Assembly (NCBI GenBank): GCA_947258885.1
Contig: CAMYKD010000002.1
Location: 1 to 64,000 of the forward strand
Reading direction: 5' to 3'
Origin: an uncultured Kiloniellales bacterium
GTDB lineage: Bacteria; Pseudomonadota; Alphaproteobacteria; Kiloniellales; JAKSDN01
DNA length: 64,000 bases
This document shows, piece after piece, positions 7,159 to 13,464 of the stretch. The translations under genes were made by a program, and so were the position numbers. Position 1 is the stretch's first letter; every line of letters begins with the position of its first letter. The notes beneath the pieces were generated by a model, which was not told the origin of the DNA, ran no database searches, and was given only the letters and a program-made list of their open reading frames with translations.

Positions 7159-7173
7159 TTAAAGTTGTCTTAA
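7159..7173. promoter_or_regulatory. CtrA-type box TTAA-N7-TTAA
   Basis: TTAA at 7159-7162, seven bases, TTAA at 7170-7173, with a further TTAAC half-site at 7188-7192, in an AT-rich island of an otherwise GC-rich region. A TATAGT -10-like hexamer follows at 7206-7211. This is the full CtrA response-regulator consensus; the likely target is the small gene at 7250. Confidence 0.55.
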
Positions 7174-9018: not shown

Positions 9019-10545
9019 TCACCCCCGTCCCGGCGCGATCCTGCGGTAGCTCAAGGCCTCCGCCACATGTATTCGGCGCACGTTTTCGCAGGCGTCCAGG
9101 TCGGCGAGGGTGCGGGCGACGCGCAGGACGCGGTGGTAGCCACGCGCCGAAAGACGCATTCTATCCGTCGCCTCGGCCAGAAGGCGCCGACCCTCGGGGT
9201 CCGGGGCGGCGATCTCCTCCAAGAGCTGGCCGTCGGCCTCGGCGTTGGAGCGCGGGCGGCCCGCTTGCGGCATGTCCGCGTAGCGGGCGTGCTGGCGGGC
9301 GCGGGCGGCGGCGACCCGTTCCGCGATCTCGGGCGAGCCTTCGGCGGGCGGTGGCAAGGAGAGGTCGGCGGCCGAGACCGACGGCACCTCGACGTGCAGG
9401 TCGATGCGGTCGAACAGCGGCCCCGAGATCTTCGATTGGTAGTCCCGCGCGCATCTGGGCGCCCGGCTGCAGGCCAGCGCCGGATCGTCCAGGTAGCCGC
9501 AGCGGCAGGGGTTCATGGCGGCGACCAGCTGGACCCTCGAGGGGTAGGTGACGTGGGCGTTGGCTCTCGCGATCGCGACCCGGCCGGACTCCATGGGTTG
9601 GCGCAGGGCCTCCAGCGTGGCGCGCGCGAACTCGGGCAACTCGTCGAGGAACAGCACGCCGAGATGCGACAGCGAGATCTCGCCCGGCCGAGCCCGGTTA
9701 CCGCCGCCGATCAGCGCGACCAGGGAGGCCGAGTGGTGCGGGTCGCGGAACGGCCGCCGGCGCAGCAGCCGCCCGCCCTCGAGCAACCCGGCCACCGAAT
9801 GGATCATCGAGACCTCCAGAGCCTCGGAAGGCGCGAGCGGCGGCAGCAGGCCGGCCAGGCGCTGGGCCAGCATCGACTTGCCGGCGCCCGGCGGACCGAT
9901 CATCAGCAGGTTGTGGCCGCCGGCCGCGGTCACCTCGAGCGCCCTCTTGGCCGTCTCCTGGCCCTTGATGTCCTTGAGGTCCGGATCCTCGCCGCCGGCC
10001 TCCGCCAGCGCCGGCTCCGGCGGGGTCAGCACCTGGGTGCCCTTGAAGTGGTTGACCAGGGCCAGCAGTGTGGCGGGCGCCAGCACCTCGACACCGGCGG
10101 CCCAGGCCGCCTCGCCGCCCTGGGCCGCCGGGCAGATCAGGCCGCGCTCCGAGGCCGCGGCGTGGAGTGCGCTGGGCAGCACGCCGGCGACCGGCGCCAG
10201 GCCGCCGTCCAGGCCAAGCTCGCCGAGCGCGATATAGCCGACGAGCTCGTCGCCCGGCAGGACCGCCATGGCGGTGAGCAGGCCGAGCGCGATCGGCAGG
10301 TCGAAGTGGCTGCCCTCCTTCAGCAGGTCGGCGGGGGCCAGGTTGACCGTAATGCGCCGCGGCGGCAGCGCAAGGCCGAGGGCGCCCAAGGCGGCGCGCA
10401 CCCGCTCGCGGCTCTCGGCCACCGCCTTGTCGGGCAGGCCGACCACGGTGAAGCTTGGCAGGCCGCCGCCGGCGATCTGAACCTGGACGTCGACATCGAC
10501 GACCTCGATGCCCTGGAAGGCCACGGTGCTGACCCGCGCAACCAT
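9019..10545 (-). CDS. comM: YifB/ComM family Mg-chelatase-like AAA+ ATPase
   Basis: A 508-residue protein: an N-terminal ChlI-type domain (about 1-165, with AVAESRERVRAALGALG and the LAPADLLKEGSHFDLPIALG block), an AAA+ core with Walker A GPPGAGKS and FLDELPEF as Walker B, and a C-terminal Mg_chelatase_C domain (SARGYHRVLRVARTLADL). In Vibrio, ComM is a hexameric helicase that promotes branch migration in natural transformation; in most bacteria the role is unproven. In alphaproteobacteria it commonly neighbours gshB or yraN, which are about 5-7 kb away here. Confidence 0.95.
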   Translation of the reverse strand: MVARVSTVAFQGIEVVDVDVQVQIAGGGLPSFTVVGLPDKAVAESRERVRAALGALGLALPPRRITVNLAPADLLKEGSHFDLPIALGLLTAMAVLPGDELVGYIALGELGLDGGLAPVAGVLPSALHAAASERGLICPAAQGGEAAWAAGVEVLAPATLLALVNHFKGTQVLTPPEPALAEAGGEDPDLKDIKGQETAKRALEVTAAGGHNLLMIGPPGAGKSMLAQRLAGLLPPLAPSEALEVSMIHSVAGLLEGGRLLRRRPFRDPHHSASLVALIGGGNRARPGEISLSHLGVLFLDELPEFARATLEALRQPMESGRVAIARANAHVTYPSRVQLVAAMNPCRCGYLDDPALACSRAPRCARDYQSKISGPLFDRIDLHVEVPSVSAADLSLPPPAEGSPEIAERVAAARARQHARYADMPQAGRPRSNAEADGQLLEEIAAPDPEGRRLLAEATDRMRLSARGYHRVLRVARTLADLDACENVRRIHVAEALSYRRIAPGRG

Positions 10546-10749: not shown

Positions 10750-11592
10750 ATGACGAAGGACATTCTTGCGGTCGAGCCCGAGATCCGGCTGGGAATTTTC
10801 CTCGGGGTCTTCGCGGTCATGGCCGTCTGGGAGGCCCTCATGCCACGGCGCGGTCGAACCGTTTCCCGCTGGATCCGCTGGCCGAGCAATCTAGGCATCG
10901 TGGCCGTCAACACCTTGCTTTTGAGAGTCCTCTTCCCGACCGCCGCTGTGGGACTGGCGTTGTTGGGCGAAGAGCGGGGCTGGGGACTGTTGAACAACCT
11001 GGTCCTGCCCACCTGGCTGTCCTTGGCGCTCGCCGTCCTGCTGCTCGATTTCGTGATCTATCTGCAGCACGTGATGTTCCATGCGGTCCCGGCGCTCTGG
11101 CGGCTGCACCGCATGCACCACGCAGATCTCGATTTCGACGTGACGACCGGCGCGCGGTTTCACCCGATCGAGATCCTGCTGTCCATGGGATTGAAGCTGG
11201 CCGTCGTGACGGCGCTCGGCGCTCCGGCGCTCGCCGTGCTGATCTTCGAGGTGTTGCTGAATGGCACGGCCATGTTCAACCACGCCAACCTCCGTCTCCC
11301 CGAGGCGCTCGACCGGGTATTGCGCTGGGTGATCGTCACGCCGGACATGCACCGGGTGCACCATTCGATTGTGCCGCGCGAGACGAATAGCAACTTCGGC
11401 TTCAACCTGCCCTGGTGGGACCGGCTGCTGGGCACCTACCGCGCCCAGCCCGCCGCCGGGCATGCGGCCATGACTATCGGCATCGAGCAATTTCGCGCCC
11501 CCCGCGACCTGTGGCTCGACCGTATGCTGGTGCAGCCTTTCCTCGGCGAGGCGGGGCGCTATCCGATCAACCGGCGCGATTCGGCCGACTGA
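10750..11592 (+). CDS. Sterol desaturase / fatty acid hydroxylase family protein
   Basis: A 280-residue integral membrane di-iron oxygenase of the PF04116 family. The histidine clusters are HVMFH (about 100-104), HRMHH (about 113-117) and HRVHH near residue 207, with the conserved WWDRLLGTY just after. Four or five hydrophobic segments precede and separate the clusters. Relatives hydroxylate or desaturate sterols, carotenoids, hopanoids or alkylglycerols; the substrate cannot be assigned. The longer frame begins at 10669, but ATG 10750 gives a natural start; a TTGACA hexamer lies at 10690-10695. Confidence 0.88.
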   Translation: MTKDILAVEPEIRLGIFLGVFAVMAVWEALMPRRGRTVSRWIRWPSNLGIVAVNTLLLRVLFPTAAVGLALLGEERGWGLLNNLVLPTWLSLALAVLLLDFVIYLQHVMFHAVPALWRLHRMHHADLDFDVTTGARFHPIEILLSMGLKLAVVTALGAPALAVLIFEVLLNGTAMFNHANLRLPEALDRVLRWVIVTPDMHRVHHSIVPRETNSNFGFNLPWWDRLLGTYRAQPAAGHAAMTIGIEQFRAPRDLWLDRMLVQPFLGEAGRYPINRRDSAD

Positions 11593-11713
11593 AGGCCTGA
11601 GGCCTCGGGCGCAGCGGCAGGCAGCAGGCGTCGCGAAGTCAAAACCCCTTTGCGGGTAATTCCACTCGGAAATGCGCCGGAAGCACGATCTGCCGGGCGG
11701 CGGAGCCATCCCG

Positions 11714-11728
11714 TTAACGGGTTGTTAA
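11714..11728. promoter_or_regulatory. CtrA-type box TTAA-N7-TTAA
   Basis: TTAA (11714-11717), CGGGTTG, TTAA (11725-11728): the full CtrA half-site spacing, second such site in the window. A -10-like AT-rich stretch (TCAAATAC, about 11751-11758) lies downstream, so transcription would start near 11760. Confidence 0.55.
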
Positions 11729-11797
11729 GACGGCCTGTGACAGAATTGGGTCAAATACGCAAAACGTAATACATGGGGGAAGTCCAAGTATCGAGCG

Positions 11798-11919
11798 CTC
11801 CGAGACCACTTCGGAGAGTCAGTTTGGTCCCGGTGAAAGACCTCAAGGGACCACGGAGCGCTGATCGGCAGTCTGGACCACAGAGGCCCGGACCCCGAAT
11901 AAGGGACATCCCTCTGTGG
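11798..11919 (+). promoter_or_regulatory. Three consecutive hairpins in a long 5' leader
   Basis: Inverted repeats CTCCGA/TCGGAG (11798-11816, loop 7), GGTCCC/GGGACC (11826-11852, with an inner GGT-GAAAG-ACC stem) and CCACAGAGG/CCTCTGTGG (11878-11919, loop 24). All arms are perfect. The last ends eight bases before the AGGAGG of the downstream gene. It does not match any riboswitch class I know; it may be a regulatory leader or a small RNA. Confidence 0.55.
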
Positions 11920-11937
11920 ACGTAACAGGAGGATGGC

Positions 11938-12303
11938 ATGGCCCATCGATTCAAGAAGGGCGGGAACCGCGCCGTAGACGTTGATATCGGCCGCCGCGAG
12001 GCGTTGACCCGGCTCGGCCTCGGCGTGTCGGCCGCATACGCGGCACCCGTGCTGCTTACGCTGACCTCGACCGCGGAGGCCGGCGTCGTTATCGGCGACG
12101 AGGTTCCAACCAACCCCAAGGGTGGCAAAGGTGGCGGTGACGGAAGCGACCCGTCTGCCGTTTCGGCCCCCTCAGCCCCCTCAGCCCCCTCAGCTCCCTC
12201 GGGACCCTCGGGCTCCGGAAAGGGAAAAAAGCGGGGAGGCAATCGAAAACGCGTCACGGTGCGGGAACTGCTGGAGTACCTTGCGAACTTCGGGAAGAAA
12301 TGA
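11938..12303 (+). CDS. Small exported protein with Ser-Ala-Pro repeats, function unknown
   Basis: A 121-residue protein. The N-terminus has Arg-Arg followed by a hydrophobic stretch (RREALTRLGLGVSAAYAAPVLLTL then STAEA), resembling a Tat-type signal or anchor with cleavage after AEA. After a Gly/Lys-rich linker come tandem Ser-Ala-Pro triplets (about 76-90) and a basic C-terminus (GKKRGGNRKRVTVRELLEYL). I know no family for it. ATG follows AGGAGG by five bases; a CtrA-type box and a structured leader lie upstream. It is probably a small cell-envelope protein; this is inferred from composition only. Confidence 0.65.
   Translation: MAHRFKKGGNRAVDVDIGRREALTRLGLGVSAAYAAPVLLTLTSTAEAGVVIGDEVPTNPKGGKGGGDGSDPSAVSAPSAPSAPSAPSGPSGSGKGKKRGGNRKRVTVRELLEYLANFGKK
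12163..12207 (+). repeat. 9-bp tandem repeat encoding Ser-Ala-Pro
   Basis: Five tandem units of TCAGCCCCC or close variants (TCGGCCCCC, TCAGCTCCC, TCGGGACCC), in frame within the small exported protein. Two units are identical, so slippage could change the copy number without breaking the frame. Confidence 0.85.
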
Positions 12304-12429
12304 GTGCGGCGGCGCGGGCCCAGGTCGCGCGCCCTTGCCACGGACTCCCGAACGCCAGGATGACCGCGGATACGGTCGCCGCATTGCGCTGAACGGCGAT
12401 CCATATGCCGGGCGCGAGGGCGCTTCGCG

Positions 12430-13464
<1,035 letters not shown>

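Follow-up and report, generated by a model that had tools for sequence, protein, structure and literature searches.

A conserved structured leader behind a CtrA-type box in one genus of Kiloniellales, with a possible competition for its anti-Shine-Dalgarno strand

In the stretch of 64,000 nucleotides analyzed here (the window), from an uncultured Kiloniellales bacterium, we found a structured leader between a CtrA-type box and the gene for a small exported-type protein. The leader is real and conserved, is absent from Rfam, and is restricted to one genus among the genomes searched; its kind, the structured translational leaders, is already known, and this member of it is new. Our tentative reading is that it would act in cis on the translation of a CtrA-driven mRNA, a Shine-Dalgarno (SD) mimic at the 5' end and the SD itself competing for a single anti-SD strand. 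This proposal rests on the conservation of the whole unit, on the complementarities of the strands involved, and on near-equal energies of the two folds (ON and OFF) in two of the five leaders compared. From these, we infer that both folds may occur in the cell and that the balance between them may be regulated.

Promoter and anatomy of the locus

The features of the locus are listed below, with five copies compared throughout (L002, which is that of the window, L003, L004, L009 and L012).

11714..11728, plus strand: CtrA-type box TTAA-N7-TTAA, an exact match kept in 5/5 copies
11741..11746, plus strand: probable -10 element CAGAAT, 12 bases 3' of the CtrA box
11753..11937, plus strand: non-coding structured leader, 185 bases, its start placed from the position of the box
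11771..11785, plus strand: 5' SD look-alike ACAUGGGGGAAGUCC (ACAUGGAGGAAGUCC in L004), near-invariant in the five copies
11790..11799, plus strand: 5' arm of predicted helix P2, AUCGAGCGCU, nearly invariant, 44/45 cells paired
11800..11856, plus strand: variable interior of P2, including the GGTCCC/GGGACC repeat, from pair probabilities and cell counts
11857..11865, plus strand: 3' arm of P2, AGCGCUGAU, from cell counts
11866..11898, plus strand: predicted hairpin P3 (CGG..CUGGACC / GG.CCGG..CCG) with CCAC at the loop, upper stem with 39/45 cells paired
11904..11917, plus strand: anti-SD strand GGACAUCCCUCUGU, 3' arm of the predicted closing helix, with the SD as its alternative partner
11927..11932, plus strand: Shine-Dalgarno AGGAGG (CAGGAGGATGGCATG invariant in 5/5 copies)
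11938..12303, plus strand: gene of the small exported-type protein, 121 aa

The original prediction had described a CtrA-type box, a gene-free leader of about 180 bases and a strong SD, all of which are present in the sequence. The box (TTAACGGGTTGTTAA), a pattern expected by chance 0.01 times per window and occurring twice in this one, is separated by 209 gene-free bases from the start codon ATG at 11938. In each of the five copies, a -10-like hexamer comes exactly 12 bases after it (CAGAAT, CACAAT, CAGAAT, GAAAAT and GAAAAT). A full promoter was not found in a sigma-70 scan, as may be expected if CtrA replaces the -35 element. The genome encodes a CtrA orthologue (G000:C1), with 71% identity over 202 aa to a query that we take to be the Caulobacter CtrA sequence. 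Both a CtrA gene and a full TTAA-N7-TTAA box near the predicted -35 are thereby present, as would be expected of a member of the CtrA regulon. Together with the conserved box and its conserved spacing to the -10-like element, this makes it likely that CtrA drives the leader's promoter. Full CtrA boxes of Caulobacter start near -35 (PMC4287350), and that of the ctrA P2 promoter at -39, from which the 5' end of the RNA is here predicted at about 11749-11753.

The second full box of the window lies at 7159-7173, and a small ORF (VQHRELWAAAKLAVRAYARDPSEQ...) begins about 75 bases downstream of it. A relative of this ORF is found in another genome (G002:C14, L059:6134-6388), about 4 kb from two leader-bearing paralogues. 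At the other end of the leader, an out-of-frame ATG is overlapped by the SD (AGGAGGATGGCATGG, 11936-11940 and the SD) and is invariant in 5/5 copies.

Conservation and distribution

The five copies come from three draft genomes of one genus. Orthologues of the window's protein occur once in each of the other two genomes (L003 and L004), and one of these genomes also harbors tandem paralogues (L009 and L012). All four further copies have the same CtrA box, leader and SD, each before a gene of the same family; with the -10-like element included, this conservation as a unit supports the earlier suggestion that the leader is regulatory and lies downstream of a CtrA promoter. Relative to the copy of the sister species (L004), identity amounts to 84% in the leader (156/185), as against 64% (76/119) in the intergenic DNA 5' of the box, 70% in the coding region and 50% in the stretch 3' of the gene. 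Since its identity exceeds that of the flanking stretches, we conclude that the leader is under selection. The paralogous proteins have no more than 58 to 66% identity to that of the window, yet their leaders share the common core CAYGGRGGAAKUCCAAGUAUCGWGCG...CGCYGAUCG...UGGNCCAC.

Outside the genus, the searches were negative. A pattern search allowing 3 mismatches in 98 relatives rose above the background of a reversed-pattern control in the genus only, the match at L029 being rejected as lying within an open reading frame (antisense or coding). Similarly, when 61 genomes from the order and 385 from the class were scanned with a covariance model, matches came from the genus only; two marginal ones, L045 and L048, overlap coding frames and do not contain the core. 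An exact pattern search of GTDB contigs returned the same two MAGs of the genus (Kiloniellales, Rhodospirillales) and one Ignavibacteria match, and the covariance model supported neither the latter nor the 16-mer matches in IMG/VR. The leader was not found in the plasmids searched, and is absent from the distant relatives of the window's protein.

One contig carries a tandem duplication of box, leader and gene (L059:591-1891, G002:C14). Next to it is a desaturase-like gene remnant, similar in kind to the one upstream of the window gene. Box, leader and gene thus seem to duplicate together as a whole unit.

Predicted structure of the leader

As the original prediction proposed to check, the region folds more stably than shuffled sequence. 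Bases 11730-11960 reach -85.1 kcal/mol versus -73.5 kcal/mol for dinucleotide-preserving shuffles (z -2.57), with 0/200 shuffles as good, and z ranges from -2.6 to -3.2 overall, the latter for the leader alone. The leader of L009 is no more stable than its shuffles (z 0.08). The antisense strand scores similarly to the sense strand, so that fold stability gives no strand, which was assigned from the box, the SD and the gene.

Three successive inverted repeats had been described, namely CTCCGA (11798-11803)/TCGGAG (11811-11816), GGTCCC (11826-11831)/GGGACC (11847-11852) and a 9-bp CCACAGAGG (11878-11886)/CCTCTGTGG (11911-11919). Although all three are present, they cannot all form together: the first competes with a longer AGCGCTCCG/CGGAGCGCT helix, and the third with a CUGGACC/GGCCCGG hairpin. 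As for the 9-bp hairpin near the SD as a gate of translation, it finds no support: it is perfect only in the copy of the window and broken in the other four (30/45 cells pair), and was rejected for this lack of conservation.

Instead, base-pair probabilities and constrained folds point to a common architecture, a three-way junction of a closing helix, P2 and P3. J12 has three invariant bases, P2 abuts P3, and J31 has four or five bases. The SD look-alike at 11771-11785 would form either the 5' arm of the closing helix or a local hairpin, P0 (UGGN/UCCA, with GGA in the loop). The closing helix emerged from a free partner search and was not presupposed: in 4/5 leaders the 5' element pairs best, of all downstream sequence, with the pre-SD strand, and in L004 that strand lies within 0.3 kcal/mol of the best. 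The copies also agree in the register of the helix and in where its mismatches fall (A-A at pair 11). When only the flanks were shuffled and the CCNCC core was kept, p for this pairing was 0.004 (L002), 0.011 (L004), 0.064 (L009) and 0.0004 (L012), and the corresponding fractions of real 34-mers from the window were 0.0025, 0.014, 0.039 and 0.0005; as the copies are related, these values are not to be multiplied.

Covariation, another of the checks first proposed, was no better than in shuffles for the core model, and two compensatory pairs among the five sequences, both in P3, are what came out in its favor. In a hand-made alignment of the closing helix the changes are consistent only, none of them compensatory. 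Covariation is silent because most paired columns are invariant, and on five sequences from three draft genomes it is too thin as proof of structure.

Competition for the anti-SD strand

In the proposed mechanism, an SD look-alike (GGRGGA) at the 5' end and the real SD would be alternative partners of the pre-SD strand CAUCCNCC, which is complementary to both. In the ON fold, the pre-SD strand would pair with the look-alike, closing the compact three-way junction and leaving the SD free. In the OFF fold, it would pair with the SD so that translation is blocked, and the 5' element may then fold as P0. The likeliest candidate for a trigger is CsrA, which would bind at GGA sites.

The pairing behind the OFF fold joins CAUCC-C-UCUGU (11907-11917) to ACAGG-A-GGAUG in the SD region (11925-11935), and its seven pairs hold in 34/35 cells over the five copies. 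In shuffles it is weaker than the closing helix, with p of 0.048 (L002), 0.017 (L004), 0.071 (L009) and 0.84 (L012). One strand is thus complementary to the SD and to a strand competing with it, as in leaders with alternative SD pairing, the SD pairing being weak in L012. Any CCNCC strand pairs with any GGAGG, so that either pairing lends the other less support than is apparent. The SD-paired fold is the predicted energy minimum in L003, and the SD is predicted to be mostly paired in L004 and L009. The ensemble energies of the enforced ON and OFF folds are -84.3 versus -83.3 kcal/mol in L002 and -85.3 versus -86.0 kcal/mol in L003, i.e. near-equal, within about 1 kcal/mol, in these 2/5 leaders. 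The SD-closed fold is favored by about 4 kcal/mol in L004 and about 2 in L009, while in L012 the SD-open fold is favored by about 12 kcal/mol. With OFF weak in L012 and ON disfavored in L004 and L009, the balance between the folds is not conserved.

We regard the 5' element as an SD mimic since its predicted binding to the 16S anti-SD (-9.3 to -10.9) is almost as strong as that of the true SD (-11.3), about 5% of random 16-mers from the window reaching -9.3. Such a mimic could serve as a decoy or a standby site.

The main sober rival is a constitutive structural role, in which the three-way junction just keeps the SD open, or stabilizes the 5' end of an abundant mRNA, and nothing switches. The better statistics of the closing helix relative to the SD-sequestering helix speak for it, as does L012, where the open fold alone is viable. 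We nevertheless hold it to be doubtful, given that all copies retain the SD-complementary strand and that closed-SD folds are favored in L004 and L009.

Alternatively, the leader may be repressed by CsrA/RsmA, bound to the GGA in the P0 loop and to the GGAs of the SD so as to block ribosomes, the fold mainly displaying these sites; as the trigger, such binding is compatible with the SD-competition reading. The preferred site of CsrA is a GGA within a hairpin loop, and CsrA is also a competitor at SDs (PMC4347634). The genome encodes CsrA (73 bits), near fliP and beside flagellar genes, and the P0 loop holds a GGA by sequence in 5/5 copies. GGA is furthermore enriched on the sense strand, most clearly in L012 (9 versus 4.3 expected, 0/300 shuffles), followed by L004 (3/300), L003 (8/300) and L002 (19/300), and is not enriched on the antisense strand. 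In L009, however, the enrichment is not significant (58/300), and the P0 loop lacks a good match to the full RUACARGGAUGU consensus. Moreover, P0 is predicted in only part of the five copies, being improbable in L012 and minor in L002, and CsrA binding leaves the invariant CCAAGUAUCG stretch unexplained, for which reasons we consider repression of this type unlikely as the primary role of the leader.

Known RNA families and weaker alternatives

That the leader matches no known riboswitch class agrees with our Rfam search, in which no family reached its gathering score in the window; below threshold, the best match to the sense strand of the leader had E = 0.82. The homologous loci gave no Rfam match up to E 1, and a known RNA family is rejected on these results taken together. 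The GGAGGAAGUCC segment bears a resemblance to RNase P RNA that was set aside, since the remainder of the leader differs and RNase P RNA is not among the Rfam matches.

A ligand-binding riboswitch, with a metabolite or ion at the junction tipping the balance, would be in keeping with the compact three-way junction, the invariant 3-base J12 and the near-invariant GGAAKUCCAAGUAUCG strand. It is very unlikely in view of the Rfam result and of a distribution unlike that of known riboswitches, restricted as it is to a genus and linked to a single gene family that has no metabolic role. With regard to aptamer-type covariation, the five sequences offer a near-invariant core and the two compensatory pairs, not above shuffles.

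No intrinsic terminator was found in 11590-12440, and with none before the gene, transcription attenuation is rejected. The same finding, along with the conservation of SD and gene in cis, makes processing of the leader into a trans-acting small RNA most improbable, even though the RNA is stable and conserved and its SD-like and anti-SD-like strands would be able to pair with other mRNAs. Lastly, a translated upstream ORF (11773-11925) as the cause of the conservation, with 50 open codons in L002 and L003, is rejected, given ACG in place of ATG in L012, a frame that closes after 19 to 21 codons in L004, L009 and L012, and substitutions at first and second codon positions within the first ten codons.

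Relation to known leaders

Returning to the competition between the SD mimic and the SD, its closest parallels are translational riboswitches and leaders of the sequestor/anti-sequestor type, where an anti-SD strand likewise has two exclusive partners, one of which is the SD. Here, in contrast, the competitor resembles an SD in its turn and sits at the extreme 5' end, the element is not in Rfam, and no ligand is assigned. Leaders controlled by CsrA/RsmA, e.g. flagellin leaders, share the GGA in a hairpin loop, here a putative one, the GGA in the SD and a CsrA gene in the genome, but the present leader has a long conserved multibranch fold and precedes a non-flagellin gene, CsrA binding being putative. 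CtrA-regulated promoters with a full TTAA-N7-TTAA box are similar in their exact box, the conserved spacing to a -10-like element and the presence of CtrA, and differ in that a long structured leader is added here, with CtrA binding again putative. In Caulobacter, FlbT binds the flagellin leader (PMC4347634), which is also a structured 5' UTR in a CtrA-using alphaproteobacterium; FlbT is encoded here as well, while the target gene is unrelated to flagellin.

If the proposal is true, a gene timed by CtrA would be subject to a second checkpoint, at the level of translation, for which its own ribosome-binding site has been copied, a design simple enough to be searched for in other alphaproteobacteria, and the small exported protein family would be marked as worth such close control. 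Its general importance is limited for now, as the element is a narrow one, from one uncultured genus. Rather improbable, in our estimate, is the more far-reaching idea that decoy-SD junction leaders form a new class of regulatory RNA, in which a bound ligand or protein would cause the anti-SD strand to be captured or released, coupling a CtrA cell-cycle promoter to the translation of a surface or exported peptide.

The downstream gene and its relatives

The 121-aa protein has an RR-type signal (RREALTRLGLGVSAAYAAPVLLTL), a low-complexity middle rich in Ser/Ala/Pro (repeats in the window's protein) or Gly/Ser, and an invariant-like C-terminal TVRELLEYLANFGK. No family for it was found in Pfam or NCBIfam, nor any relative among solved structures. 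Relatives of its signal region, without the C-terminal motif and without the leader, are found across the class, and many of them neighbor a PqqD-HprK-related kinase fusion (PF05402 at 52 bits; TIGR04352 at 40.7 bits, below its cut-off). This suggests that the RR-signal protein and the kinase fusion act as a pair in peptide modification, where PqqD may read the signal region; the gene of the window would then be a relative that stands alone. In the genome of the window, a small RR-signal protein gene and a kinase fusion gene lie side by side (L058:8902-9198 and 9306-10532, G000:C18). The same pairing occurs at L006, L007, L011, L016, L061, L063, L064, L065, L068, L071, L072 and L073, where the proteins are mostly Gly/Ser-rich.
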